Of a stretch of DNA of 64,000 nt, positions 1 through 15,445 are shown one piece after another (position 1 is the stretch's first letter; the number at the start of each line of letters is the position of its first letter). The notes beneath the pieces are model-generated. The model saw only the letters and a program-made list of their open reading frames with translations. It did not search any database and was not told the origin of the DNA. The stretch is taken from contig NZ_JACXZT010000019.1 of the NCBI RefSeq assembly GCF_014779595.1, positions 1,664,462 through 1,728,461 of the forward strand. Direction: 5' to 3'. This DNA is from Halomonas sp. ML-15. GTDB taxonomy: Bacteria > Pseudomonadota > Gammaproteobacteria > Pseudomonadales > Halomonadaceae. The position numbers and the translations under genes are program-made.

Positions 1-162
1 TGGATAGAAGGCCTTGCGCGCCAGGTGCAGCATCACCGAGGAGTCCTTGCCGATGGAGTACATCATCACCGGATGACGGAACTCGGCGGCCACCTCACGA
101 ATGATATGGATCGATTCCGCCTCGAGTTGCTTGAGGTGGGTCTGGCGTTCGGGGGACAGCAT
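1..162 (-). CDS. cysD: Sulfate adenylyltransferase subunit 2, N-terminal fragment
   Basis: The first 54 codons of CysD, cut by the window edge. CysD is the ATP-sulfurylase subunit that, with the GTPase CysN, makes adenosine 5'-phosphosulfate from sulfate and ATP in assimilatory sulfate reduction. The visible protein starts [20 protein letters not shown] and contains the PP-loop-type signature [10 protein letters not shown] typical of the PAPS reductase/CysD family. It starts at the ATG read from 162; GAAGAGG about 10 nt upstream can serve as ribosome site. Only the N-terminus is visible, so completeness of the gene cannot be judged. Confidence 0.9.
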
Positions 163-3880: not shown

Positions 3881-4037
3881 AGGTTTTGTACGAAAAGTCG
3901 GCGAGCGATGGCCAGACAAGGCAAAAATCGACGAAAACGGACCGGGCTCGCGCACGAGTTTACGGGGTGTAAATGAGTACTTTGAGCCGATTTTTAACGC
4001 CGTATGGGCGAGCGCAGACAGTTTTCGTACAGAACCT
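3881..4037. mobile_element. MITE-like inverted-repeat element, 157 bp
   Basis: A non-coding element bounded by 16-bp terminal inverted repeats: AGGTTTTGTACGAAAA at 3881-3896 and its complement at 4022-4037 with one mismatch (AGGTTCTGTACGAAAA). Similarity between the arms continues inward, ending at a shared AAAAATCG about 45 bp in. It fills the whole gap between greB and the convergent 4-TM gene, and its last two bases are the first two bases, on the plus strand, of that gene's stop codon (4036-4038). No transposase is encoded, so it would need an enzyme in trans. It may also fold as a bidirectional terminator. Confidence 0.7.
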
Positions 4038-4428
4038 AGGGCTTGGCCATCAGGTCGCCGCGCCAGGCCCGCCAGAAGGTCACGCCCTGCAGCACCGCGA
4101 ACAGCGCCTCGAACAGGGCCGGTAGCCATAGCCAGCCCGTGGCAAACAGGAAGAACAGCGCAAACAGCCCCCGGCACAGGATCGACAGCAGCGCCACCAG
4201 GCGATTGTGCAGCGGTGCCAGGGCAGCCGGCAGATAGAGCAGCCCCACCACGACCATGGCCAGGCCGGCATAGCGTACCCAGGTCAGTGGGTACGGCAGA
4301 TCGGCGCCCATCACGCCCAGCAGGCTAACCGGCCAGAGCCACAGCCATAGGCCCAGCAGCACATTGAGGGCGATTCCTACCTGCATCACCCGTCGATAGG
4401 TCGCGAACATATCGTGTGAGGTCTGCAT
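4036..4428 (-). CDS. Small four-helix membrane protein (paralogue of the 10504 gene)
   Basis: A 130-aa inner-membrane protein with four predicted hydrophobic helices (about residues 15-35, 48-68, 75-97, 100-122). No enzymatic motif. It is homologous to the protein at 10504-10881: compare LLYLPAALAPLHNRLVALLS with LFYLPAAFDPYHYRSIAMLA. In both places the gene is paired with a di-haem cytochrome c, which suggests a membrane partner or maturation/anchoring subunit for that cytochrome. Here it is the distal gene of the leftward set, 23 bp after the cytochrome. Its stop codon overlaps the end of the inverted-repeat element. Function is unknown. Confidence 0.7.
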   Translation of the reverse strand: MQTSHDMFATYRRVMQVGIALNVLLGLWLWLWPVSLLGVMGADLPYPLTWVRYAGLAMVVVGLLYLPAALAPLHNRLVALLSILCRGLFALFFLFATGWLWLPALFEALFAVLQGVTFWRAWRGDLMAKP

Positions 4429-4451
4429 TACATTACTCCTTAGCCAAACGT

Positions 4452-6002
4452 TTAAAACGTCAGCAAGTAGTTGAGCAGGTCAGAGCGCTCCTGCGCCGTC
4501 AGCTCGGTGCCGTAGAGATGCCCCTGGCGACCGTTGCCGGGCTCGCTGGTGTCGAAACAGAAGCCTTCTGCCAGAGGCTCGCCGGGCGTGCAGTCCGGCG
4601 CCACGAAACCGCCCTTCTCCTCATCCAGCACGTCCAGCCCGCGCACGAAGGCTGGCGGGCGCTCCGCCGGTGGCAGCAGCAGGTCATACAGGGTCGGCAC
4701 GGCGCCATTGTGCAGGTAAGGCGCCCGCAGCCAGAGCCCGTCGAGGGGCAGGTTGGCGTAGCCGTCGGTGTTGCGGAAGTGCCGGAAGCGGTAGCGCTCG
4801 TCATCCTCGAACAGAGTCATCTGATAGCGCTGCAGGGTCTCGGTGTAGCTATCGAGGCGAGCCGGATCGACGCCCAGTAGATCGTTGGGCACCACCTGGC
4901 CAAGACGCTCCCCTGCGAAGACGTAGCGCTCGCCGTCCTGGTAGCCGTGACAATCGGCGCAGTGGCGCATATAGAGCGGCTTGCCGGCGGCCACCCCCTC
5001 GGGGTCCGGACGATAAGGGCTGGGCGGCGGCTCGAGGTCCAGCAGCCAGTCGGCCACCCGCTCGATGCCCGCGTGGTCGACGCTCTCCTCTGTTACCCCG
5101 GCGCCGATGGCGGCACTCAGGTTGCGCTCCTGCAACGAGGCGTTGTTGCCATCCCAGTGCAGGTCCATGCCCTGACGGGGGCGCTGCAAGAAGATCGCCG
5201 GGAAGTCGCTGGTGCCGATCCGCTCCGCCTCATCCAGCTCAGCAACATCCATATCGAACTGCAGCAGCTTGTAGGGATTGAAGGTGTCCACGCGGCCTGG
5301 GCCCCAGGGGGGCTGCTTGTCCAGCAGTGGCGCGAGTGTCGCCCGGGTCTCCAGCAGCCCCTCGCGCACCTGGGGCAGGACCGCATAGCGCCATACCTGT
5401 CGCTCGATCCAGCCCAGCCGCTGTCCCTGGGCATCCATCTCGTCGAGCACGCGCTCCGGCGCCAGCCGCGGATCATCGGCCGCCTCCAGCAGGAAGCTGA
5501 TAAACCCATGCAGATCGAGGTTATTGGAGGGCATGCCGGAGATCTGCCGGGGGGAGGCCTCCGGCGAGTCGCGGACCGTTCCCACGTGGCAGAGCGCACA
5601 GTTGAACCAGGCGATCTCCACGCCGCGCACTTCCCGAGTGCCGAGGCCAATCGGTAGATCCCCCCGGCTCGCGTCGTCGCCCGGCGCGTAGAGAAAACCG
5701 AAGACCTCGTAGTGCCGGTCGTCGAAGACGTCCGGGAACAGCGCCGGGAGCACCCGCCATAGCCTTACCGGGAGGCCGCTGACCTCGCTGCCGATGGAGC
5801 CGTGCAGGAAGTGGGTCTCCGGGTCGGCGTAGTGCTGCACCGACTCACCGCTATAGCGCCACAGCGTCGGCACGCCGATCACCAGGGCCAGCAGACCGAT
5901 CACCACCACGGCCATGGCGAGCAGCGCCAGTGGCAGACGCAGCCAGCGCCGGCGGCGGGCCTCCTGTTGCACGGCAGTGACCGGGGGCTCCTGTGGTCTC
6001 AT
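4452..6002 (-). CDS. Membrane-anchored di-haem cytochrome c, RoxA/peroxidase-like
   Basis: A 516-aa protein with one N-terminal transmembrane anchor (about 22-46) and a large periplasmic part holding two c-type haem sites, C135-A-L-C-H139 and C348-A-D-C-H352. Between and after them are family motifs WGPGRVDTFNPYK, DLHWDGNNASLQERN and LDGLWLRAPYLHNGAVPTLY. This layout belongs to the di-haem cytochrome c peroxidase superfamily, closest in style to RoxA-type rubber oxygenases and the Pseudomonas di-haem oleate oxygenases; that relation is from memory. It may oxidise or oxygenate a lipid, or pass electrons in the locus. It starts 8 bp after the OYE gene and is paralogous to the protein at 10904. 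Confidence 0.75.
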   Translation of the reverse strand: MRPQEPPVTAVQQEARRRRWLRLPLALLAMAVVVIGLLALVIGVPTLWRYSGESVQHYADPETHFLHGSIGSEVSGLPVRLWRVLPALFPDVFDDRHYEVFGFLYAPGDDASRGDLPIGLGTREVRGVEIAWFNCALCHVGTVRDSPEASPRQISGMPSNNLDLHGFISFLLEAADDPRLAPERVLDEMDAQGQRLGWIERQVWRYAVLPQVREGLLETRATLAPLLDKQPPWGPGRVDTFNPYKLLQFDMDVAELDEAERIGTSDFPAIFLQRPRQGMDLHWDGNNASLQERNLSAAIGAGVTEESVDHAGIERVADWLLDLEPPPSPYRPDPEGVAAGKPLYMRHCADCHGYQDGERYVFAGERLGQVVPNDLLGVDPARLDSYTETLQRYQMTLFEDDERYRFRHFRNTDGYANLPLDGLWLRAPYLHNGAVPTLYDLLLPPAERPPAFVRGLDVLDEEKGGFVAPDCTPGEPLAEGFCFDTSEPGNGRQGHLYGTELTAQERSDLLNYLLTF

Positions 6003-6009
6003 GGCAGCC

Positions 6010-7365
6010 TCACGTATGCTTCGCCGGCGGCACCGGTGGCAGGCGCAGCTCGGGGCGGGTGTCGTAGATGGCCATCAGGGCCGCGATCATGCGCTCGTGA
6101 TCACCATCGAAGCGGGACAGCTCATAACAACCCAGTGGATTCTTCGGCGCGTTGAGCAGGCATTTGTTGCAGAAGGTGCAGGGGCGTGCCGGGGCGTCGT
6201 GCCCGGCCTGCCACAGCCGGGGCAGGTCGGGGTTGGCGATCAGCGCGCGGGCGCTGGAGACGGCGTCGCAGGCCCCGCTGTCGATGGCCTCGCGTACCAG
6301 AGCGGCGCGCTGATAGCCGCCGGTACTGATCACCGGAATGCCCACTGCCTGGCGCACCGCGCGCGCCTCGTCGAGGCTCACACCCTCCACCACATGGCCG
6401 CGCTGGTGGCGAGACCACAGCCAGCGAAATATCCAGCGCAGCGACGAATAGCGAAACAGCAGGTAATTGCGGAAGGTGTTGGTCCCGGCGGAGAGCATGG
6501 CATCGTAGCTGCTGGCGATGGTCTCGAAGGAGAACTCCCCCGGCGGATTCAGGGGATGGGGAAAGAGACTGCCGACCGATACGTGCAGGGCATCGGCACC
6601 CGCCGTTTCCACCCAGCGGCACACCTGCAGGCTCTCCGCCAGGGTATTGCCCTTGCGTTCCCAGGGCAGGATGTCGTTATGGTCTACGACGCTGATCTTC
6701 ACCTGCAGGTGGAAGTCGGGGCCCACTCGCTCACGAATGGCGTGGATCACCTCCAGCAGGAAGCGCGCCCGGTTGGCCAGTGACCCGCCATAGCGGTCGC
6801 GCCGGTCATTGATGGCAGAACTCAGAAACTGGGTGAACAGGTAGCCGTTGGCGGCGTGCAGCTCCACGCCGTCGAGGCCCGCCTCCCGGGCGCGCCAGGC
6901 CCCGTCGGCGAAAGCCTCGATGGTGCGTTCGATCTCATGCTCACTCATGGCCCGGCACAGGAAGCCGTGCAGCGGCTCCTTGTGGTGAGTGGCGCTGAGC
7001 GACCGGCGATGCTGGTTATGGACCCCGGGAAGATCCATCTGCCGCCCGGAGTGGCTGAGCTGCAGGATGTACTTGCAGTCGAAGCGGTGCACCGCCTCGC
7101 CGAGCCGCTGCCATAGTGGAATGAAGTCATCGCGGTGGATGGTGGCATAGCCGGCGATGATGCGCCCCTCCATCTGCACCGGCACGAAGGAGGAGATGAT
7201 GGCGCCCACCCCTCCCCGGGCGAACTGGCACTCCCAGTTGATGCGCGTTTGAGTCAGGCTGCCGTCTTCGTTATCGAAGCGCCCGGAGATGTTCGAGCGG
7301 AAGAGACGATTCTTGACCGCCAGGTTGCGCCACTTGAGCGGCGAGAAGATCACATCCTCGCTCAT
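6010..7365 (-). CDS. Old Yellow Enzyme family NADH:flavin oxidoreductase
   Basis: A 451-aa FMN-dependent TIM-barrel ene-reductase. The substrate-carbonyl pair and proton donor of OYE are visible as H170, N173 and Y175 in ELHAANGYLFTQFL, followed by the signature DRRDRYGGSLANRARF. Near the C-terminus four cysteines (396, 399, 402, 413; C-x2-C-x2-C-x10-C) resemble the 4Fe-4S cluster of 2,4-dienoyl-CoA reductase-type relatives, without the second FAD/NAD domain of those enzymes. Its start overlaps the stop of the P450-like gene by 4 bp (ATGA), so the two are translationally coupled. Reduction of an enone derived from an oxidised fatty acid is an inference from the neighbours. Confidence 0.85.
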   Translation of the reverse strand: MSEDVIFSPLKWRNLAVKNRLFRSNISGRFDNEDGSLTQTRINWECQFARGGVGAIISSFVPVQMEGRIIAGYATIHRDDFIPLWQRLGEAVHRFDCKYILQLSHSGRQMDLPGVHNQHRRSLSATHHKEPLHGFLCRAMSEHEIERTIEAFADGAWRAREAGLDGVELHAANGYLFTQFLSSAINDRRDRYGGSLANRARFLLEVIHAIRERVGPDFHLQVKISVVDHNDILPWERKGNTLAESLQVCRWVETAGADALHVSVGSLFPHPLNPPGEFSFETIASSYDAMLSAGTNTFRNYLLFRYSSLRWIFRWLWSRHQRGHVVEGVSLDEARAVRQAVGIPVISTGGYQRAALVREAIDSGACDAVSSARALIANPDLPRLWQAGHDAPARPCTFCNKCLLNAPKNPLGCYELSRFDGDHERMIAALMAIYDTRPELRLPPVPPAKHT

Positions 7366-8270
7366 CGTCCGCCCTCCCCTGACCTAGATGCCATGGCCTG
7401 CTCCCAGATATCGGCCAGCAGCGCCAGGATGAAACGCTGGGCCGGACAACGCCCCCAGCTATCGCCCATGAAGGCCAACTCCCGGTCGCCACTGCTCCGC
7501 ACACTCTCGGCGAGTCGCAGCAACACCAGATCGCCGGGCACCAGGCGACGCGGCGAGCAGGGTGTCGACAGCGGCGCCAGCACCTGGCGCAGCAGCGCTT
7601 CCGGTACGCTGAGGCAGCGCGCCAGCACCGCCGCCTGGGACAGCGCTGATGCCTCCCGAGTAGCGGCCAGAATCCTCATCGACACAAGCGCCGCCACCAG
7701 GTTATGCACCGCCACGCTGGTGGCATGCAGGGTCATGGGGTCGCCCTGGGCGCGCTCATACAACAGTTGGCGATCTCGGCGAAGTTGGCCACTGAGGCGC
7801 TGGAGCAGCGCCTTGAGGGCATTGACGCGCGGATAGTCGTTAAGCCGCCGGGCGGCGGCAAAGCTTGCCTCGTCGGCCCGGTAATCGTCGCGAAACCGCC
7901 GCCCCAGCAGCCCCTGGGCGGCAGGCCCCAGCGCCTCGGCTTCAGCCTGGCCGGCCACGACGTCCACTAGGGCCTTGAAAGCGGGATCCTGGCGCCAGAT
8001 CGCCGCTTCGGCGCCCTCGTCCAGCCGCCGCCCCAGCTCGGCGTGGCACGACTCGCGCCCCTTGGCCTCGCGGCCCAGCAGGGCCGGCAGCGGCTCTCCG
8101 TCGAAGACGAAGGCACCGCGCAGTCGGGCCAGGCGCGAGCGATTGATCAGGCCGCCGCTGGGGGCCAAGGAGCGGTCGAGACGCGAATCACCGTCGAGCA
8201 GACGAATCTCTCCGGGGTCGGTGACCTCCAGAACGTTGATCAGCCCGGGAATATGCAGGCGTCTGGCCAC
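7362..8270 (-). CDS. Short cytochrome P450-like protein
   Basis: A 302-aa protein with no signal peptide. The C-terminus LAFMGDSWGRCPAQRFILAL resembles the P450 haem-thiolate loop, with Cys275 in the ligand position and an RCPAQRF arrangement recalling the CAA/CAG-K-D pattern of CYP74 enzymes. Upstream, a long helix (about 180-205, LHATSVAVHNLVAALVS) and PEALLRQVLAPLS could be the I and K helices, although ExxR is not exact. It is about 100 residues shorter than a normal P450 and lacks most of the meander. The GTG at 8270 has AGGAG 5 bp upstream, better than the ATG at 8288. It lies directly after the dioxygenase gene, like a split dioxygenase-P450 fusion. Confidence 0.5.
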   Translation of the reverse strand: MARRLHIPGLINVLEVTDPGEIRLLDGDSRLDRSLAPSGGLINRSRLARLRGAFVFDGEPLPALLGREAKGRESCHAELGRRLDEGAEAAIWRQDPAFKALVDVVAGQAEAEALGPAAQGLLGRRFRDDYRADEASFAAARRLNDYPRVNALKALLQRLSGQLRRDRQLLYERAQGDPMTLHATSVAVHNLVAALVSMRILAATREASALSQAAVLARCLSVPEALLRQVLAPLSTPCSPRRLVPGDLVLLRLAESVRSSGDRELAFMGDSWGRCPAQRFILALLADIWEQAMASRSGEGGR

Positions 8271-8341
8271 GCTATCTCCTTCTCTCATGCCGCTGGTCCG
8301 CTATCGATCCCGCTGCTCTACTAATCCGAACTCTTTCCGCA

Positions 8342-10150
8342 TTAGCCGCGGTTCCACGGGAAGAAGGCGTTGCGCACGCCCTCCAGCCGTGGCGCCAGTT
8401 CGGGAAAGTGGCGGCCGATGACCGACTTCATATCATTGTTATCGATCCACTCCATCCCGGCCCGGGTGTAGACCTCGGGGGTATAATCGTCGGTGAAGAA
8501 GCGGTCGCTCTTGAGGCGTCGCGAGGCCATCAGGATGAAGATGCGGAAGGCGGTATCGCTGAAGGCGAAGCCGGGCGGCGGGGTCTCGGCCAGACAGCCG
8601 ATCAGCAGGTCGACCTCCTCCACGTCGCCATAGACCGCCTCCAGCTCGCGCTGCCACTCGGGGTTGTCGGTCAGCTCTGCAAAGCTCGCGGGGGCCGGCA
8701 TGTCGATCAGGCGGCGGAAGCGGCAGTAGCGCGGCACCCCGCGTTCGCGGTCGCGCAGCACATCCACCGTGGCCAGGTCGATCGTTCGATGATGGGGCGC
8801 CTGCTTCTCGTGCTGCTGCAGGTGACTCGGAAAATTGTGCAGCACCAGGGCGCCGGGGTGGCTGGTGCCCAGCGAGTAGAGCGCATCGCTGAGCGACATC
8901 TCCGAATAGAGCGCCTGGGTCAGAGAGCCGGCCACCTCGGTCAGGCCACACTCCTTGATCAGGCCGTCGTCGTCCAGACGCCGGAAGCTGAAATCGTCGG
9001 GAATCAGCGGATGCATGCGGTAGACGGCGCTGAACTCCTCGGTAATCGCGTAGGGCGCGGCATGGTGATCCACCGGCGAGCCGACGATGCCGCTGAACAG
9101 TTCGCTGTCGCTGACACGCCCCCGGCTGCGGTAGAAGTGCTCGTCGAGCACCCCCCACCAGTTGGAACGCATGCCAAGCCGCAGCTCCGGCGTGTCGAGC
9201 AGCGCCGGGGTCCACTCGACGGTGTGGATCTTGGCAATCAGCGCCGCGACTACCAGCCGAGCCTTCTGGAACAGCCACTCGCCGTCACGGTCGGGGTGCT
9301 CGATGCGCAGCCGGTCGACGATGGCGTTGTGCTCCATGGCGAACAGGGTGTGCATCAGCGACAGGCCAATCCACCAGTTGCCGTTGGCGCCCGCCAGCTC
9401 GATGCCGTGTTCATCCAGCGGCAGGTGGCCATCGGGCTTGAGGTAGAGCTTGCCATCGGCCAGCAGTTCACCGCTGTCGGGGTCGGTGCGCACCAGGCGC
9501 TGACGGCGCAGGCTGCTGCCGTAGATCTGGGAGGCGTCCCACCACTGGGTCTCGGTGTTGAGGAAGGTATCGGGGTGCCCCTCATCGGCGGAGGAGCGGG
9601 TGGTATCGCGACGGCTGCGTAGCACCGTCATGCTCTCCCAGGGCCAGTCATCGTCCTCGTCCAGGGGTACCTCGTGGCGCTCGGCCTCGGTGTCGTTGGA
9701 GCCGTGGCTGAACCAGTCGTGGACCATGAACTGCAGCCAGGCGGGGACCAGAACATTGAGCGTGGTCGCCGGCACGAAGGTGTTGCGGGTCATCAGGCGC
9801 CGGCTGATCACCCGGGGGCTGGGCGTCATCAGTCTGTCGCCGGTCTCGCCGAAGGTCTCGGCAGGCGGCACATTGCGACCGAAGCGGGTATACGCCTTGC
9901 CCATGGCGGGTTCCGCCAGGTCGTTGTAGCTGCCGTCGGCGGTGCGGAACTGGTGGACGTCGATCGCTTCCCGCTCGGGCTTCTCGAGGGGCTCCCGCTC
10001 GGTCGAGTAGAGATTGTGCCAACGCAGGTTGCGGCGCAGGGCAACGAGATTGATCACGGCGATGGGGAAGGGAAACCGATACCACTGGCGGCGCCTGTTG
10101 ATGCGCCGAAACACCCGACCGAGCAAACCACTTCCACGTTGACCGAACAT
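8342..10150 (-). CDS. Haem fatty-acid dioxygenase (COX / alpha-dioxygenase family)
   Basis: A 602-aa animal-haem-peroxidase superfamily protein most like plant alpha-dioxygenase. Motifs in order: FGRNVPP (90-96), AWLQFMVHDWFSHG with distal haem His144, WWDASQIYGS, HTLFAMEHNAIVDRL, and EEFSAVYRMHPLIPDDF. In the last, Tyr377 lies three residues before proximal His380, the spacing of catalytic Tyr385 and His388 in cyclooxygenase. That Tyr distinguishes fatty-acid dioxygenases from simple peroxidases, so insertion of O2 into an unsaturated fatty acid is expected. No signal peptide; the basic N-terminus could associate with membrane. The start is supported by GGGGGAG 5 bp upstream. First gene of the leftward set. 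Confidence 0.82.
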   Translation of the reverse strand: MFGQRGSGLLGRVFRRINRRRQWYRFPFPIAVINLVALRRNLRWHNLYSTEREPLEKPEREAIDVHQFRTADGSYNDLAEPAMGKAYTRFGRNVPPAETFGETGDRLMTPSPRVISRRLMTRNTFVPATTLNVLVPAWLQFMVHDWFSHGSNDTEAERHEVPLDEDDDWPWESMTVLRSRRDTTRSSADEGHPDTFLNTETQWWDASQIYGSSLRRQRLVRTDPDSGELLADGKLYLKPDGHLPLDEHGIELAGANGNWWIGLSLMHTLFAMEHNAIVDRLRIEHPDRDGEWLFQKARLVVAALIAKIHTVEWTPALLDTPELRLGMRSNWWGVLDEHFYRSRGRVSDSELFSGIVGSPVDHHAAPYAITEEFSAVYRMHPLIPDDFSFRRLDDDGLIKECGLTEVAGSLTQALYSEMSLSDALYSLGTSHPGALVLHNFPSHLQQHEKQAPHHRTIDLATVDVLRDRERGVPRYCRFRRLIDMPAPASFAELTDNPEWQRELEAVYGDVEEVDLLIGCLAETPPPGFAFSDTAFRIFILMASRRLKSDRFFTDDYTPEVYTRAGMEWIDNNDMKSVIGRHFPELAPRLEGVRNAFFPWNRG

Positions 10151-10202
10151 GAGACTCCCCCCTGAACAATGCCGTCGCTACCCACCCAATCTCCCCCAAG
10201 GC

Positions 10203-10370
10203 CTAGGAGCCTGTCGGACTTAACGCTGATCCACTGCGAGATCCGGTCTTTCGGCCAATTTCATTCGATCTGATTCGTTAAATAGCGGGCTATTCGCCTC
10301 ATCAGATCGATAAACTTGGCTCGAAATCCAAATCTCTCGTGACGATCGGTCAAATCCGACAGGCTCCTAG
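10203..10370. mobile_element. MITE-like inverted-repeat element, 168 bp
   Basis: A non-coding element bounded by CTAGGAGCCTGTCGGA at 10203-10218 and its exact complement ending at 10370. The arms continue imperfectly inward (ACTTAAC against TTTGAC). CTAG at each end may be part of the repeat or a target duplication. AGGAGCCTGTCGGA ends are, from memory, typical of IS1182-type elements of this group of bacteria; no transposase is present. It lies between the divergent dioxygenase gene (start 10150) and the 4-TM gene (start 10504), so it may have brought or disturbed promoters. The rest of this 353-bp gap (10371-10503) shows no other feature I can support. Confidence 0.7.
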
Positions 10371-10503
10371 AGATCTCAGTTACACAAGAGTGACGTGACC
10401 TCACCGAACTTGACTACTAACCTCTAGCACAGGGTCCGAGTTCCCACCAGCAAGGGAGCGGGCGCATCAGACCCTTAAACGCGCAGGGGGGGGGTGCCGG
10501 GGG

Positions 10504-10881
10504 ATGAGCAGATACGCCGCGGGATTTCGTGCCATGGTACTGCTGGGGGTGGTGGCCAACCTCCTCTTCGCCCTGCCGGCGGTCATTGCGCCTAACGCGG
10601 TGATCAGCCTGGTGGGCGGCGCCCCGGTTGCCGAGCCGGTGTGGCCCGCCTTTGCCGCCTGGCTGCTGATTCTGCTCAGCCTGTTCTACCTGCCGGCGGC
10701 ATTCGATCCTTATCACTACCGCTCCATCGCCATGCTGGCGGTCCTGGCGCGTTTCGCCGGGGTGGTGTTCTTCACCTTGCTGTATCCACAATTTCCCCTC
10801 TTCGCCCTGATCGACCTGTTCTTCGGCGTGACCCAGGGCGCCCTGCTGTTGCTGCTTCGCCGCGCCGAAAAAACGACATAA
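10504..10881 (+). CDS. Small four-helix membrane protein (paralogue of the 4036 gene)
   Basis: A 125-aa membrane protein with four hydrophobic helices and the same conserved core as the 4036-4428 gene (LPAAFDPYHYRS, then FFGVTQGALLLLLRR at the end). It precedes a di-haem cytochrome by 22 bp, whereas the paralogue follows its cytochrome, so gene order is swapped but the pair is kept. That conserved pairing is the only functional clue: a membrane partner of the cytochrome is likely. The ATG at 10504 is preceded by a G-rich stretch that can act as a ribosome site. Confidence 0.7.
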   Translation: MSRYAAGFRAMVLLGVVANLLFALPAVIAPNAVISLVGGAPVAEPVWPAFAAWLLILLSLFYLPAAFDPYHYRSIAMLAVLARFAGVVFFTLLYPQFPLFALIDLFFGVTQGALLLLLRRAEKTT

Positions 10882-10903
10882 TAAAACTCGAGGAGAGACG
10901 CTC

Positions 10904-12373
10904 ATGGCATCCACACACCCAGGGAGTTCCAAATCTTCGCGGCGCTGGTGGATATGGCTGCTGCTGTTATTGATCTCCGCAGGGGTGCTCGGGGCAGTCG
11001 GCTGGTACCAGCTATTTCGGGAGGAGCCGCAGCGCTTCGATAGCGTCGAGGCCTACTACCTGTACGGTTCCATCGGCGCCGAGCAGGAGGAGGGCATCCC
11101 CTACTGGATCTGGCGCGTACTGCCGGATGTCTTTCCCCAGCACCTGCCCGGAGAGGGTGGCTACGAGGCCTTGGGCGTACTCTGGGAAGAGGGCGAGCCA
11201 ACCCCGGCCGGCTTCTCCAAGAAGACCATCGGCTTCCCGCGCATCGCCATCAACTGCGCCGCCTGCCACACCGCCAGCTATCGCACCTCAGAAGACGGCG
11301 AACGCCAGATCGTCCCCACTGGCCCCCATCAGACCTTCGACCCCCAGGCCTACCTGGGTTTCCTGGGGGATGCCGCCAATGACCCGGACTTCACCGCTGC
11401 GACCCTGCTGTCGGCTATCGAGGAGGAGACCGATCTCTCCCTGCTCGACCGCCTGCTCTACCGCTTCCTGATCATTCCGCGGACCCGGGATGGGCTTCAG
11501 GAGCAGGCGACACGCTTCACCTGGACAGAGGAGCGCCCGCGCTGGGGGCCGGGGCGCATCGACCCCTTCAACCCGGTCAAGTTTCACCCCGACCTGTTGG
11601 CACTGGATCCCGCCGAAGACGACACCATCGGCAATTCCGACATCATGCCGCTGTGGGCGATGGACGAGCAGAAGGGCTTCGCCCTGCACTGGGATGGCCT
11701 CAACGACTCCTTGACCGAAGTGGTGCTGAGCGGCGCCATCGGTGACGGCGCCCGTCCCGATTCGCTGCCCGTGGCCGACCTCGCCGACCTGGAAGCCTAC
11801 CTGCTGACCAAGCGTCCGCCGCCCTACCCCTTCCTCGACGATCTCGACGCCGACCTGGCCGCCGAAGGCGAGGCGCTGTTCCAGCAGACCTGTGCCGGCT
11901 GTCACAGCCTGGAGGGCGCACGCACTGGCTCGGTGATCCCCCAGACCGAGATCGGTACCGACCCCCACCGCCTCGCGATGTGGACCAGCGAGGCCGCCGA
12001 GCGCTACAACGCCTACGCCGAGGAGTACCCCTGGGACTTCAACGCCTTCGTCAAGACCGACGGCTACGTGGCCAAACCCCTGACCGGCATCTGGCTGCGC
12101 GCGCCCTACCTGCACAACGGCTCGGTCCCCACCCTGGAAGACCTGCTCCAGCCTGCCGAGGAGCGCCCCGAGCGCTTCTACCGCGGCTACGACGTCTACC
12201 ACCCCGAGCTGATGGGCTTTATCCATGACGGCGAGGCCGCCGAGCGCCACGGCTTCCTGTACGACACCGCCGAGCCGGGCAACAGCCATCAGGGACACGA
12301 GGGAGCCGCGTTCGGCACCCAGCTCGATGACGAGGAGAAGGCGGCGTTAATCGAATACCTGAAGACGCTCTAG
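10904..12373 (+). CDS. Membrane-anchored di-haem cytochrome c (second copy)
   Basis: A 489-aa protein with an N-terminal transmembrane anchor (about 14-35) and two haem c sites, C118-A-A-C-H122 and C330-A-G-C-H334. It shares with the 4452 protein the motifs RWGPGRIDPFNPVK, LHWDGLNDSL, LTGIWLRAPYLHNGSVPTLE and a C-terminal AEPGNSHQGHEG segment, so the two are clear paralogues although diverged. The catalytic domain should be periplasmic. It lies between the 4-TM gene and the 75-aa/patatin pair on the same strand, with gaps of 22 and 16 bp, consistent with one operon. Whether it is a peroxidase, an oxygenase or an electron carrier cannot be read from sequence. Confidence 0.75.
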   Translation: MASTHPGSSKSSRRWWIWLLLLLISAGVLGAVGWYQLFREEPQRFDSVEAYYLYGSIGAEQEEGIPYWIWRVLPDVFPQHLPGEGGYEALGVLWEEGEPTPAGFSKKTIGFPRIAINCAACHTASYRTSEDGERQIVPTGPHQTFDPQAYLGFLGDAANDPDFTAATLLSAIEEETDLSLLDRLLYRFLIIPRTRDGLQEQATRFTWTEERPRWGPGRIDPFNPVKFHPDLLALDPAEDDTIGNSDIMPLWAMDEQKGFALHWDGLNDSLTEVVLSGAIGDGARPDSLPVADLADLEAYLLTKRPPPYPFLDDLDADLAAEGEALFQQTCAGCHSLEGARTGSVIPQTEIGTDPHRLAMWTSEAAERYNAYAEEYPWDFNAFVKTDGYVAKPLTGIWLRAPYLHNGSVPTLEDLLQPAEERPERFYRGYDVYHPELMGFIHDGEAAERHGFLYDTAEPGNSHQGHEGAAFGTQLDDEEKAALIEYLKTL

Positions 12374-12389
12374 GCGCTGGGAGTAAATT

Positions 12390-12617
12390 GTGGCCGAATA
12401 TCTGAAAGTCGTCTTCCCCGAGCGCCGCGAGGTCTGGCTCGACGGCGAGCCCGCCGCCTTGACCCAGTCGGTGTGCCAGGTCGATGCCGGCTGGTACACG
12501 GTGACGCTGGCCCCGCCGCAGGACTTTGCGCCCGAGTGCCAGCGAGTCGAGGTCATCGATACCCTGCCCTCGGCGCCGCTGATCGTCGAGTTCACCCTCA
12601 AGGAGCCGGGCCCGTGA
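12390..12617 (+). CDS. Small beta-domain protein, PEGA-like
   Basis: A 75-aa protein starting at GTG (12390). The pattern VWLDGEPAALTQSVCQVDAG, then WYTVTLAPP, recalls the PEGA fold (short beta domain with an xVDGx turn and G-x-hydrophobic strands), but the match is weak. There is no signal peptide. It lies 16 bp after the di-haem cytochrome, and its stop overlaps the GTG start of the patatin gene (GTGA at 12614-12617), so the two are translationally coupled. It may be an accessory to the phospholipase or cytochrome. Function unknown. Confidence 0.6.
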   Translation: MAEYLKVVFPERREVWLDGEPAALTQSVCQVDAGWYTVTLAPPQDFAPECQRVEVIDTLPSAPLIVEFTLKEPGP

Positions 12618-14026
12618 GCTCCCTTGTGACGCGAGCATTCGGCCTGCTGCTGTCGTTGACGTTGCTGGCCGGCTGTGCCGCCTTCCCCGAGAATCAGCCG
12701 CTGGAGCGCATCGATACCAGCAGCGGCTACCGCTATGCCAACCTGGAGGGGGCGGACAACAGCGAGGAGCTGTTCGTGATCCTCAGTTTCTCCGGTGGCG
12801 GCACGCGGGCTGCCGCCCTCGCCTACGGCGTGCTGGAAAAACTGCGCGACAGCTGGGTCGAGCTGGACGGGGAGTCGCGCAACCTGCTGGATGAGGTGGA
12901 TGTCATCTCGTCGGTATCCGGCGGCAGCTTTACGGCGGCCTACTATGGGCTGAATCGCGACGCCATCTTCGAGGAGGGGGGCCGGTTTCAGCGCCAGTTT
13001 CTCTACCGTGACGTCGAATCGGACCTGAAGCGTCGGCTGCTCAGCCCCTATAACTGGGCCAGACTGGCCTCGCCCACCTTCGGGCGCATCGAACTCGCCG
13101 AGGAGGTCTATCAGGAACGGCTCTTCGACCAGGCGACCTTCGCCGACCTGGCGGACAACGGCCGCAAGCCCTTCCTGCTGATCAATTCCACCGACATGGA
13201 CAAGGGGTCCCAGTTCACCTTCGTACAGTCGCAGCTCGACCCGATGTGTGTCGATCTCGACAGCATCCCGCTGTCACGGGCCGTGGCGGCCTCGTCGAAC
13301 TTCCCGATCGCCTTTACGCCGCTGACCCTCAACAGCTACCCCGGTCGCTGCGGCTACCAGGAGCCACCCTGGGTGGCCAACGCGCTGGAGGGCCTGAATA
13401 CCAACCCCCGCCGCTACTACCGCGCGCGCCACTGGCAGCGCTACCAGGAGCCCGAGCGCGACCATGTGCATCTGCTCGATGGCGGCGTCTCCGACAATAT
13501 CGGCCTGCGTCCCGCCCTCGATGCCCTGCGCGCGCCCACCCTGCAGGAGGTGGAGTGGAGCGTGCTGAACAAGATGAACCGGGAAATCGTCGACAAGCTG
13601 GTGGTGATCGTGGTCGACGCCAAGTCGGATGACATGGCGGCAGACTTCGACACCTCGCCCCGCTCTCCCGGGCCCAGGCAGGTGATCAACACCATCTCCA
13701 CCACACCGCTGGCCAACTACTCCTTCGATACGGTGGAGCTGCTCAGGGAGGCCCTGCGCGACCGCGCGGACGCTCAGCGCCTCTCTCTGGACGCCGGCAC
13801 CGGAATGCATCAGATCGATCTCTACTACATCTATGTCGGATTCGATCAGCTGCAGGACGACGCCGAGCGGGAGCGCTTCCAGCGCATTCCCACCCGCTTC
13901 CGCCTGCCCAGCGAGGAGGTGGATGCGCTGCGCCATATCGGCGCCGAGCTTCTGGAGCAGTCGCCCTGCTTCCAGCAGCTGGTGGGCCAGCGCGAGAGCT
14001 CGGATGGGCGACTGTGCAGCCATTGA
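12614..14026 (+). CDS. Patatin-like phospholipase, lipoprotein
   Basis: A 470-aa lipid acyl hydrolase. It begins at GTG (12614) with AAGGAG at 12600-12605; this start yields a lipoprotein signal with lipobox LLAGC (Cys21). Patatin elements are complete: oxyanion loop SGGGTRAAA (60-68), nucleophile Ser102 in SSVSGGS, and Asp289 in LLDGGVSDNIGL, giving the Ser-Asp dyad. The mature enzyme should be membrane-tethered in the periplasm or outer membrane and could release fatty acids from phospholipids. It is the last gene of the rightward set and translationally coupled to the 75-aa protein. Supplying substrate to the dioxygenase is an inference. Confidence 0.82.
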   Translation: MSSLVTRAFGLLLSLTLLAGCAAFPENQPLERIDTSSGYRYANLEGADNSEELFVILSFSGGGTRAAALAYGVLEKLRDSWVELDGESRNLLDEVDVISSVSGGSFTAAYYGLNRDAIFEEGGRFQRQFLYRDVESDLKRRLLSPYNWARLASPTFGRIELAEEVYQERLFDQATFADLADNGRKPFLLINSTDMDKGSQFTFVQSQLDPMCVDLDSIPLSRAVAASSNFPIAFTPLTLNSYPGRCGYQEPPWVANALEGLNTNPRRYYRARHWQRYQEPERDHVHLLDGGVSDNIGLRPALDALRAPTLQEVEWSVLNKMNREIVDKLVVIVVDAKSDDMAADFDTSPRSPGPRQVINTISTTPLANYSFDTVELLREALRDRADAQRLSLDAGTGMHQIDLYYIYVGFDQLQDDAERERFQRIPTRFRLPSEEVDALRHIGAELLEQSPCFQQLVGQRESSDGRLCSH

Positions 14027-14038
14027 CGCCTCGGCGAG

Positions 14039-15445
14039 TCAATTCTGCGGATCGTTCAATCGGAACACGTTGTCGGCCTGGGAGCGGTGCAGACAGATCT
14101 CGATCAGCAGGGTGCGATGGGGCTGGAACAGTGCTCTCAGTTGCTCGACGTTCAGACAGAGGTCCTCGATATCCTCGTCGGCCAGGGTGCGAAACCCCAC
14201 CGGGGCGTAGCGGGCATTGTGCTCGTCCTCATCCAGCATCGGCTCGGCGGTGATCGACATGCCGAGCCGGGTATCGGCACGCTCGACGGCGTCGCAGAGT
14301 CGATTGGTGTCGATATAGAGGCTGCGCAGCGAGGTATCGGCCCGGTAGTTGTGCACCTTGCGAATCGCCGACTCGTGAATGCTTCGCGCCAGGGGGCCAC
14401 CGTCTGGACGGCTAGGGTCGTAGAACTCGATCAGGTAGTCCGTCACCGGCATATCGAACTGGTCGCGCACCCGCACCACGGTATTCTGGAAGCCCGGTTT
14501 GCCGCGCCTCTCACCCGGTTGACGGGTCAGCGCCTGGTTGGCCGCGTCGCACTCGTCGCAGAAGTCGCCGAACACGTCGTCTTCGATGGTCAGGGCGCGC
14601 TCGATCAGTGCCAGGGCCTCCTGCTGACCATGGCTCAGTCGACTTTCCGCGGCGTCGAGCTTGATCGCCGAGTGATCCAGCCCATCGAGGATACGAAAGG
14701 CGCAGCGTCCGCTGGACGCCCGATAGTCGACCACCTCGGGCACGGTGACCCGAACCCCGTCGCGCTCCTTTTCGCGAAAGGCGATCTGCATATGGCCGCA
14801 GTTGAGGTTGGCCGTGGCGAGGCGTACGGTGCCGTCGCCGCCCTCCTCGTTGGCCAGCGAACGGATACCGCCATAGCCGGCGTTGCCGCAGAATACCGTG
14901 CACAGCATTCGCCCAGAGGCATACATGCTCTCCCCCGTGGCGAAGCGATCCTGCATGGCCAGCGCCCAGCTGAAGGGGCTGGCCAACTCCAGGCCGCGCA
15001 GGATATTGGCCCCGGTCTCCAGTACCGCCTGCCCCGCCTGGCGGCTGAAGAAACCGTTGGTGATACGTCCCAGCATCGAACGCCCCACGTGGGCCAGCGG
15101 CGAGCCGAAGTTGGCCGGCGCCAGCATCACCAGATGCTTGACCGGAACCTTGTCGGGGGCGAAGTGGCGCACCAGCCAATCACGGATCACCAGGCCACCG
15201 GTGGAGTGCACGATAAGGTCGACGCTGGCCACCTCCCGGGGCAGTCCCTGCGCGGTCCAGGCACGATCCAGCGCCGCCTGCAGGTCATCGAAGCGCAGTG
15301 CATCGTCCTTGGAGAGGTAGTCGCCGATGGCGATGCGCTGAATACGCTCGTCGCCGAGTCGCTTGCGCAGATGCCCGATCAGCCTTTCGAAGGAGCTGCC
15401 CTCGTCGTTCCAGCCATGCAGCAGTACCAGGGGACGATGGTTCAT
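14039..15445 (-). CDS. Alpha/beta-hydrolase lipase-like protein
   Basis: A 468-aa protein with an N-terminal alpha/beta-hydrolase domain (about 1-260): oxyanion motif LLHGWNDEG, nucleophile Ser81 in IVHSTGGLV (G-x-S-x-G with the first Gly replaced), and a plausible acid and His further on (EEGGDGTVR; LDGLDHSAIK). The C-terminal 200 residues resemble nothing I can name but contain beta-rich stretches (VVRVRDQFDMPVTDYLIEFY). No signal peptide. It is convergent with the patatin gene (12-bp gap). A triacylglycerol or phospholipid lipase is likely; the substrate is not readable. Confidence 0.75.
   Translation of the reverse strand: MNHRPLVLLHGWNDEGSSFERLIGHLRKRLGDERIQRIAIGDYLSKDDALRFDDLQAALDRAWTAQGLPREVASVDLIVHSTGGLVIRDWLVRHFAPDKVPVKHLVMLAPANFGSPLAHVGRSMLGRITNGFFSRQAGQAVLETGANILRGLELASPFSWALAMQDRFATGESMYASGRMLCTVFCGNAGYGGIRSLANEEGGDGTVRLATANLNCGHMQIAFREKERDGVRVTVPEVVDYRASSGRCAFRILDGLDHSAIKLDAAESRLSHGQQEALALIERALTIEDDVFGDFCDECDAANQALTRQPGERRGKPGFQNTVVRVRDQFDMPVTDYLIEFYDPSRPDGGPLARSIHESAIRKVHNYRADTSLRSLYIDTNRLCDAVERADTRLGMSITAEPMLDEDEHNARYAPVGFRTLADEDIEDLCLNVEQLRALFQPHRTLLIEICLHRSQADNVFRLNDPQN

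Follow-up and report, generated by a model that had tools for sequence, protein, structure and literature searches.

In a 64,000-nucleotide stretch of the genome of Halomonas sp. ML-15 (contig NZ_JACXZT010000019.1, positions 1,664,462 to 1,728,461 of the forward strand; the whole stretch is hereafter the window) we find a gene cluster in which an alpha-dioxygenase (alpha-DOX), a protein of predicted cytochrome P450 fold, an ene-reductase of the Old Yellow Enzyme (OYE) family, a di-haem cytochrome and a small membrane protein are encoded one after another. This cluster is more than a chance neighbourhood, since the whole order, on one strand, recurs in 35 of the 80 best loci obtained by searching 84,980 species genomes for two peptide patterns taken from an alignment of the dioxygenase (417 stretches matched; locus counts below refer to the best 80, which were analysed). 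The gene set, its order and spread, the family and fold assignments, the conservation of active-site residues and the fusions between its genes are established by computation. We regard it as an evenly balanced proposition that they represent a conserved bacterial fatty-acid alpha-oxidation cassette, in which the P450-fold partner, the OYE and the di-haem proteins would process the product of the dioxygenase. An earlier note on this DNA had viewed the locus as one functional unit, and the recurrent order bears this out.

The host genome measures 4.8 Mb, and the nearest relatives of its dioxygenase occur in Billgrantia, Franzmannia and Halomonas. The features of the locus are the following (window coordinates; aa, amino acids; bp, base pairs):

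8342-10150, minus strand: alpha-dioxygenase of 602 aa, heading the minus-strand set (PF03098, E 1.7e-110)
7362-8288, minus strand: P450-fold protein of 302 aa when read from 8270, its likely start, without a Pfam or NCBIfam assignment
6010-7365, minus strand: OYE-family ene-reductase, 451 aa, with a four-cysteine C-terminal motif (PF00724, E 9.4e-60)
4452-6002, minus strand: di-haem cytochrome A, 516 aa, of the RoxA/FadCcp superfamily (NF040606, 153.8 bits against a cut-off of 150)
4036-4428, minus strand: small membrane protein 1, 130 aa, with several hydrophobic segments, at the end of the conserved order
10504-10881, plus strand: small membrane protein 2, 125 aa, a paralogue of small membrane protein 1
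10904-12373, plus strand: di-haem cytochrome B, 489 aa, in the divergent set (NF040606, 173.7 bits)
12473-14026, plus strand: patatin-like lipoprotein, an accessory and lineage-specific gene that probably starts near 12614 (PF01734, E 9.2e-17)
14039-15445, minus strand: lipase-like alpha/beta-hydrolase, with hydrolase matches below curated cut-offs only, accessory
10394-10435, no strand: conserved block, candidate shared promoter/operator, from an alignment of the window and 9 relatives
10203-10370, no strand: insertion of 168 bp resembling a miniature inverted-repeat transposable element, with 16-bp perfect inverted ends

The minus-strand genes are transcribed in the order alpha-dioxygenase, P450-fold protein, OYE, di-haem cytochrome A and small membrane protein 1, with successive gaps of 53, -4 (the P450-fold and OYE genes overlap), 7 and 23 bp. 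The upstream frame of the equivalent P450-fold start is interrupted by a stop in 4 of 12 genomes of the family (seen in L039 and L040), and hence the true start is probably 8270. The plus-strand set comprises small membrane protein 2, di-haem cytochrome B and the patatin. The earlier note had named genes that are all present where it placed them, but it overlooked small membrane protein 2 (10504-10881); its picture of two divergent sets with small gaps or overlaps holds for the minus-strand set but not for the lipase-like gene, which is read from the minus strand, its end facing that of the patatin gene 12 bp away, and belongs to neither set. Its assignments of an OYE (PF00724, with the active-site His, Asn and Tyr kept) and of di-haem proteins akin to RoxA and diol synthases (NF040606 and RoxA profile matches) agree with our results, and its P450-type partner is supported by the predicted fold, although Pfam and NCBIfam miss the protein.

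Halomonadaceae account for 14 of the 35 whole sets. The remainder come from Ectothiorhodospiraceae, Chromatiaceae, Caulobacteraceae, Rhizobiaceae, Labrys, Acetobacteraceae, Stappiaceae, Roseobacteraceae, Rhodovibrionaceae, Rhodospirillaceae, Burkholderiales, unplaced Rhodobacterales and alphaproteobacterial records, and one record labelled Anaerolineae. The set is permuted in one locus (Sphingomonas, L139), and in seven the dioxygenase gene is followed by the P450-fold gene without the whole set (three are cut by a contig end and one is the fused L156, described below); counting this single fused protein, the P450-fold gene adjoins that of the alpha-dioxygenase in 43 loci. The small-membrane-protein family is present in 40 loci. 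When all flanking frames within 10 kb were compared with one another, no family beyond those of the cassette was found in more than 8 loci, save for one 25-locus cluster whose sole annotated member, from Nitrospira, is a sensor kinase. Among 201 sampled genomes of the family, 13 had matches to the P450-fold protein (12 full-length and one weak fragment) and 19 to the dioxygenase, 12 of them full-length at an identity of at least 84%; the other 7 are partial and distant and stand outside this count. The same 12 genomes hold both the full-length P450-fold protein and the close dioxygenase (weak P450-like matches in G446 and in four genomes of the class were taken as chance and left out of the counts). 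In the wider order a dioxygenase match was found in 36 of 293 genomes, and of 20 regions around lower-identity alpha-DOX genes from this level only L045, of the same family, had the cassette set, the other 19 being without it.

A tree of the alpha-DOX proteins, built by a quick method and carrying a long-branch warning, gathers the proteobacterial sets in one branch of 47 rows, five of them without the P450-fold gene, with a Shimodaira-Hasegawa-like approximate likelihood ratio (SH-aLRT) support of 100. Within its mainly alphaproteobacterial part the gammaproteobacterium Ectothiorhodospira groups with the alphaproteobacterium Rhodovibrio, a placement that suggests gene transfer. The record labelled Anaerolineae (L145) stands next to an alphaproteobacterial metagenome-assembled genome (MAG) and may be misbinned.

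The dioxygenase matches rice alpha-DOX (4kvj) with an E value of 1.4e-112 over residues 15-600, as against 2e-28 for lactoperoxidase and 8e-16 for COX-2, and by these matches it is a member of the plant-type alpha-dioxygenase branch. The earlier assignment to the COX/alpha-dioxygenase family thus stands as regards a fatty-acid dioxygenase, while its COX side falls: a COX-like enzyme is ruled out by the difference between 1e-112 and 8e-16. The haem ligands H144 and H380 and the catalytic Y377 align with rice H157, H382 and Y379, and the carboxylate binders H309 and R545, together with T314, align with rice H311, R559 and T316. Y377, H380, H309, R545 and T314 are found in all 80 sequences, the window's included, and H144 in 79 of them. 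In PMC8720084 the carboxylate-binding His/Arg and Thr set is described as placing C2 of the substrate at the catalytic Tyr. Given that the catalytic and carboxylate-binding residues of alpha-DOX are kept, the enzyme is predicted to oxygenate C2 and to form 2-hydroperoxy fatty acids. Ten of 13 residues of the rice fatty-acid channel are identical, two are close substitutions (M325L and A331S), and the thirteenth is position 379, that of the catalytic Tyr, which is printed as F379 in PMC8720084 even though the paper names Y379 as the catalytic residue. Five bacterial phyla are known to have alpha-DOX sequences, and the enzymes have been characterised from cyanobacteria (PMC8720084); among the papers listed in searches of the open-access literature we found no report of a characterised proteobacterial one.

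This prediction bears on the jasmonate-like synthesis that the earlier note had proposed. In such a route a mid-chain hydroperoxide from the dioxygenase would be turned into an allene oxide by the P450, and a cyclopentenone would be reduced by the OYE. The enzyme folds of the plant and fungal routes do stand together here, but the carboxylate pocket of alpha-DOX, kept in 80 of 80 sequences, predicts a 2-hydroperoxide, whereas allene oxide and 12-oxo-phytodienoic acid (OPDA) require a 13-hydroperoxide, so that the proposal is left unsupported. The OYE, moreover, is nearest to 2,4-dienoyl-CoA reductase, and searches of the own genome for lipoxygenase and allene oxide cyclase gave no match, a weak point as none of 14 control genomes was positive either. 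Taken together, we consider such a route very improbable.

The P450-fold protein was recognised by no Pfam, NCBIfam or PDB sequence profile, none of 35 members of its family matched PF00067 at E<=1, and a homologue on a plasmid is recorded as a hypothetical protein. An AlphaFold2 model built from 12 close sequences had a predicted local distance difference test score (pLDDT) of 53, with no P450 among its 50 best Foldseek matches; the model built from 35 diverse homologues reached a pLDDT of 93.3 and a predicted template-modelling (TM) score of 0.90. With the latter, Foldseek returned 144 PDB chains at E<=1e-3, and the best 50 of these 144 are all cytochromes P450, including GfsF, TylHI, OleP and CalO2, known P450s whose entry titles do not name them as such. 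The best match is TylHI (E 4.9e-6, TM score on the query 0.62, root-mean-square deviation 6.8 Å). At some 75-110 residues less than the solved P450 chains listed (376-411), the protein is markedly short. In counts from which short or partial matches were removed by length cut-offs, and which do not include L156, Cys275, which lies in a W-x-x-C-P-A loop and is the predicted haem ligand, is shared by all 41 complete sequences; R228 and H182 are found in 42 of 42 sequences and N190 in 39 of 42. Several self-sufficient P450s that act on hydroperoxides have an axial Asn over the haem iron (PMC13049297). The near-invariant Asn190 sits in the long helix of our model and could be the equivalent of this residue. 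No ferredoxin or ferredoxin-reductase family was recognised in the conserved order, and the own genome had no match to PF00067 in a search that was positive in 7 of 14 control genomes.

In the OYE the carbonyl-binding H170 and N173 are each kept in 45 of 48 sequences and the proton donor Y175 in all 48, as are C396, C399, C402 and C413, whose spacing we take to be like that of an iron-sulphur site; the enzyme probably bears a [4Fe-4S] cluster. Its closest solved relative in the PDB profile search is E. coli 2,4-dienoyl-CoA reductase (1ps9), and none of the best 60 of its 138 PDB matches carries a plant OPR label. The significant part of the match to this enzyme, FadH, spans residues 5-250 of the chain, while the stretch 273-343 over the cysteine motif is not significant taken alone.

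Two CXXCH motifs and W283 are found in all 58 members of the di-haem family, and PYLHNG in 55; di-haem cytochrome B has its CXXCH motifs at 118 and 330 and the sequence PYLHNGS. The family profile finds RoxA (4b2n) as its best solved relative with an E value of 1e-21, W283 falling on RoxA W302 and H282 on RoxA F301. The roles of W302, the inter-haem Trp, and of F301 are those given in PMC4496055, which also places PA2077 and PA2078 of Pseudomonas in the same superfamily. Hydropathy shows one N-terminal hydrophobic segment in each di-haem protein of the window (26-44 in A), none in the alpha-DOX or the OYE, and a borderline one around the long helix of the P450-fold protein. The di-haem proteins are thus probably membrane-anchored and periplasmic, and this pattern suggests that they and the other enzymes of the cassette lie on different sides of the membrane. 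Each di-haem gene of the window adjoins a small-membrane-protein gene of its own, and the two small membrane proteins are 29.9% identical over 107 aa (E 3.45e-9). The divergent di-haem gene and its membrane protein are found in the 14 Halomonadaceae loci (L102-L115), L116 and L143, mainly a feature of this family within the scan, which places the pair outside the widely conserved core. In five further loci, from Methylobacteriaceae and Defluviicoccus (L121, L128, L133, L136 and L119), a member of the small-membrane-protein family directly follows the alpha-DOX gene with no other cassette gene in the chain, and proteins of this family may hence partner alpha-DOX directly; in L133 and L136 an OYE-family gene lies on the other strand, 4.4-4.5 kb from the alpha-DOX gene.

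The di-haem proteins open two other ways of reading the locus. In one, two linked routes would be present, with the periplasmic di-haem proteins forming an allylic hydroperoxide, as PA2077 does on oleate, the P450-fold protein dehydrating it to an enone that the OYE reduces, and the alpha-DOX then acting at the chain end. Such a scheme would provide a natural enone substrate for the OYE and is in keeping with the RoxA/FadCcp superfamily membership of the di-haem genes. However, a P450-fold or OYE gene adjoins, or is fused to, that of alpha-DOX in 50 of the 80 loci, whereas a di-haem gene directly adjoins it in only 2 (L168 and L174), the replacement of RoxA F301 by His282 means that the di-haem chemistry may differ, and the hydropathy patterns suggest that these proteins lie across the membrane from the other enzymes; we consider the scheme improbable. 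In the other, the substrate would be a non-fatty-acid carboxylate or an isoprenoid such as the products of RoxA-like cleavage, and the cassette would degrade terpenoids. That the di-haem proteins have RoxA as their best solved relative speaks for it, as does the general observation that OYEs reduce enals like those arising from RoxA-like isoprenoid cleavage. Yet the near-complete conservation of the rice fatty-acid channel noted above and the lack of a recognised terpene-degradation gene among the recurrent families (not all of which are annotated) leave this substrate with very little probability.

Fusions add to the evidence from gene order. In an acidobacterial MAG (L168) the OYE and the alpha-DOX share a single frame of 1054 aa, and in the cyanobacterium Iningainema tapete (L156) the alpha-DOX is followed by a P450-like domain in a single frame of 948 aa. 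This latter domain has no Pfam match; it scores 28 bits (E 4e-7) against the profile of the P450-fold family, the next chance frame scoring 9 bits, and in a single hhalign comparison it gave a probability of 95.6 and an E value of 1.2e-8, with the cysteine aligned in the context FGTGSPERAC. Parts joined in this way usually belong to one pathway, and the two fusions link OYE to alpha-DOX and alpha-DOX to the P450-fold protein. On a Qingshengfaniella plasmid the genes for alpha-DOX, the P450-fold protein and a membrane protein stand in a row, with a FAD_binding_4/ALO oxidase, a membrane protein, a di-haem cytochrome and an alpha/beta hydrolase in divergent orientation; no OYE is annotated in the 18.9-kb stretch covered, a statement that rests on a possibly incomplete gene table without a further OYE search.

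From these observations a pathway of four steps can be proposed. In the first, going by the conserved residues, a haem-generated tyrosyl radical would attach O2 to the C2 position of a fatty acid to give a 2-hydroperoxy acid. CYP74 enzymes, the fungal diol and allene-oxide synthases and prostacyclin synthase act on their own hydroperoxides without a redox partner. In the second step the P450-fold protein, likewise without a redox partner, would rearrange, dehydrate or cleave the labile 2-hydroperoxide, so that a defined product is formed in place of spontaneous decarboxylation. The OYE-type flavoenzyme would then reduce a C=C bond conjugated to a carbonyl, in either the product or the substrate. 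In the last step, the weakest of the four, the di-haem proteins might oxidise the lipid on the outer side, or pass electrons or peroxide to or from the pathway. On our best reading the cassette would be a bacterial counterpart of the fungal dioxygenase–P450 pairs, with alpha-oxidation chemistry. A bolder version, to which we lend rather less than even weight, is that of a widespread bacterial oxylipin pathway in which the alpha-DOX and a self-sufficient P450-fold enzyme of about 300 residues form and rearrange 2-hydroperoxides, and in which the last stages towards a new class of lipid mediators fall to an iron-sulphur ene-reductase and periplasmic di-haem proteins.

The same enzymes might instead serve catabolism or detoxification, in that exogenous, unusual or peroxidised fatty acids would be chain-shortened or disarmed through alpha-oxidation, removal of the hydroperoxide by the P450-fold protein and reduction of reactive enals or enones by the OYE, with no signal being made. 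OYEs commonly reduce reactive enones, which is in line with this role, and patatin or hydrolase genes lie near alpha-DOX in the window and on the Calothrix and Qingshengfaniella plasmids. Likewise, no regulator or receptor recurring with the cassette was recognised among the flanking families, although most of the smaller clusters lack annotation, and the Pseudomonas pair is described as combining oxygenation with control of the hydroperoxide (PMC4496055). On the other hand, the committed order, the dedicated partners and the fusions look like a defined pathway, and neither an aldehyde dehydrogenase nor an acyl-CoA gene was recognised among the recurrent flanking families, not all of which are annotated. 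We regard this role as possible but unlikely, while noting that sequence cannot separate the production of a signal from detoxification.

Several observations weigh against the alpha-oxidation cassette as proposed here. The P450-fold gene is not indispensable, as seven acidobacterial loci pair the dioxygenase with an OYE, in either order, without it, and five have the dioxygenase and membrane protein without it. In 25 of the 80 alpha-DOX loci, 3 of them at a contig end, the counted chain holds no cassette gene at all, though in three of these (L153, L176 and L179) an OYE lies on the opposite strand at 0.1-1.3 kb; and among 369 genomes sampled across the class, only the window's own had a convincing match to the P450-fold protein. 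The fusion in L168 comes from a MAG and might have arisen in assembly. Foldseek superposes the model loosely on its matches (TM scores on the query of 0.38-0.62 and deviations of 5.8-15 Å among the best 50), and hhalign of the family profile against 22 ordinary P450s was not significant (best local probability 1.3%), so that kinship with P450s rests on the predicted fold. In the ExxR motif of the K-helix the Glu is absent and the Arg (Arg218) is kept in 29 of 42 sequences, for which reason we name the protein P450-fold and do not file it as a member of the P450 family; haem binding could be altered or lost through this change. Asn190 falls short of invariance, and an axial Asn is dispensable in some of the enzymes that have it (PMC13049297). 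In principle the OYE or the di-haem proteins might act as electron donors, and the plain product of alpha-DOX is no obvious source of an OYE substrate.

The patatin has a lipobox-like LLAGC and a DGG, while a search of the protein for a strict G-x-S-x-G found none; the lipase-like protein has an HSTGG motif. Homologues of the patatin occur in 5 and of the lipase-like protein in 7 of the 14 Halomonadaceae loci, and both are absent from L107, L108, L110, L111 and L115, in which at least 7.8 kb lie beyond di-haem cytochrome B, and this rules them out as core genes (neither was seen in L113, with 6.7 kb). The earlier note had listed both as parts of the locus and had asked whether the dioxygenase, P450-like, OYE, di-haem cytochrome and patatin genes co-occur in Halomonadaceae and beyond; the dioxygenase, P450-fold, OYE and di-haem genes do, and are kept in order, but the patatin gene is not part of this core. 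A neighbourhood without conservation in relatives, which the note held would refute its reading, was thus not observed. Between the divergent sets, the block at 10394-10435 is common to ten Halomonadaceae loci (the window and nine others) and is a candidate site for a shared regulator, as promoter or operator. The 168-bp insertion also lies here; L103 and L106 have this stretch too, while L102 and L105 lack it. One further exact match to one of its ends was found elsewhere in the genome, which may be due to chance, as a reversed control pattern gave 2 matches at no more than one mismatch.

Alpha-DOX genes were also seen in other settings. Gammaproteobacterial proteins of about 920 aa (L054-L059, L063 and L064; e.g. 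L054:11081-11980) carry a fused domain of about 300 aa, the counterpart of which is a separate gene downstream of the alpha-DOX of a Calothrix plasmid (L213:9211-10122; 47% identical to L054). An hhalign probability of 0.6% rules these out as fusions to the P450-fold protein, the C-terminal domain being of another family; it had no Pfam match in three proteins tested and, though catalase-like by eye, found no catalase in a PDB profile search. The Calothrix plasmid alpha-DOX also lies near a GMC oxidoreductase and a patatin. A FAD_binding_4/ALO-type oxidase is encoded near alpha-DOX in three unrelated bacteria (L212:5582-6961, L143:6029-7435 and L148:6926-8335), and no OYE was seen near it in L143 or L148 by profile or in L212 by annotation only. 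Nitrospira loci (L163, L165, L166 and L173) have neighbour genes of their own in common, among them, in L165, one for a GAF/histidine-kinase/receiver hybrid sensor kinase.

Lipid signalling in animals, fungi and plants has the pairing of a fatty-acid dioxygenase with a P450 as a core logic. The roles of bacterial oxylipins are largely unidentified, Pseudomonas aeruginosa being the worked example (PMC5155153, PMC6377657). The presence of these conserved genes in named isolates (Halomonas, Caulobacter and Labrys) offers a way to ask if bacteria share this logic by means of alpha-oxidation. If the bolder version is true, the cassette would stand beside the COX–P450 and Ppo systems as their prokaryotic operon equivalent, and its P450-fold family would possibly be among the smallest known. 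This family, overlooked by Pfam and NCBIfam, is of possible use in hydroperoxide chemistry and the production of fatty aldehydes. Among the papers listed in searches of the open-access literature, which did not extend to subscription papers and preprints, we found no description of such a cassette, or of a P450 fold of this kind in one; its novelty is hence provisional.

Compared with known systems, the dioxygenase shares with the plant and cyanobacterial enzymes (rice OsaDOX, CalDOX and LepDOX) the sequence family, haem ligands, catalytic Tyr, carboxylate-binding His/Arg and the Thr at C2, whereas the annotated neighbours of the Calothrix plasmid alpha-DOX differ from the cassette genes; the accessible part of PMC8720084 mentions no P450-like, OYE or di-haem partner, and the words 'P450', 'old yellow' and 'operon' are absent from the main text of PMC9305512. 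With the oleate diol synthase of Pseudomonas aeruginosa (PA2077/PA2078, FadCcp) and with RoxA the di-haem proteins have in common the paired CXXCH, the PYLHNG motif (55 of 58) and the inter-haem Trp, and as in Pseudomonas two di-haem paralogues share a locus. They differ in their length of about 490-520 aa, in the His at the position of RoxA F301, in the companion small membrane proteins and in the alpha-DOX cassette setting, with no LysR regulator recognised alongside. The plant jasmonate pathway (LOX-AOS-AOC-OPR3) likewise combines a fatty-acid dioxygenase with enzymes of P450 and OYE type, but the window has alpha-DOX in place of LOX and an OYE nearest to a bacterial 2,4-dienoyl-CoA reductase; LOX and AOC were unmatched, with the weakness given above. 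E. coli FadH, the closest solved relative, and the [4Fe-4S] OYE family share the four-cysteine motif after the barrel, while the OYE of the window has 451 aa against the 671 of the FadH chain, and His170 and Asn173 where FadH has Met and Glu. Finally, the fungal PpoA/LDS, AOS and EAS fusions and the COX–prostacyclin/thromboxane synthase systems also join a dioxygenase of the peroxidase-COX superfamily to a P450-type partner, which is fused here once (L156); the cassette has a P450 fold of about 300 aa without significant sequence similarity to known P450s, and it is further set apart by its predicted alpha-carbon chemistry, its mostly separate genes and its additional OYE and di-haem genes.

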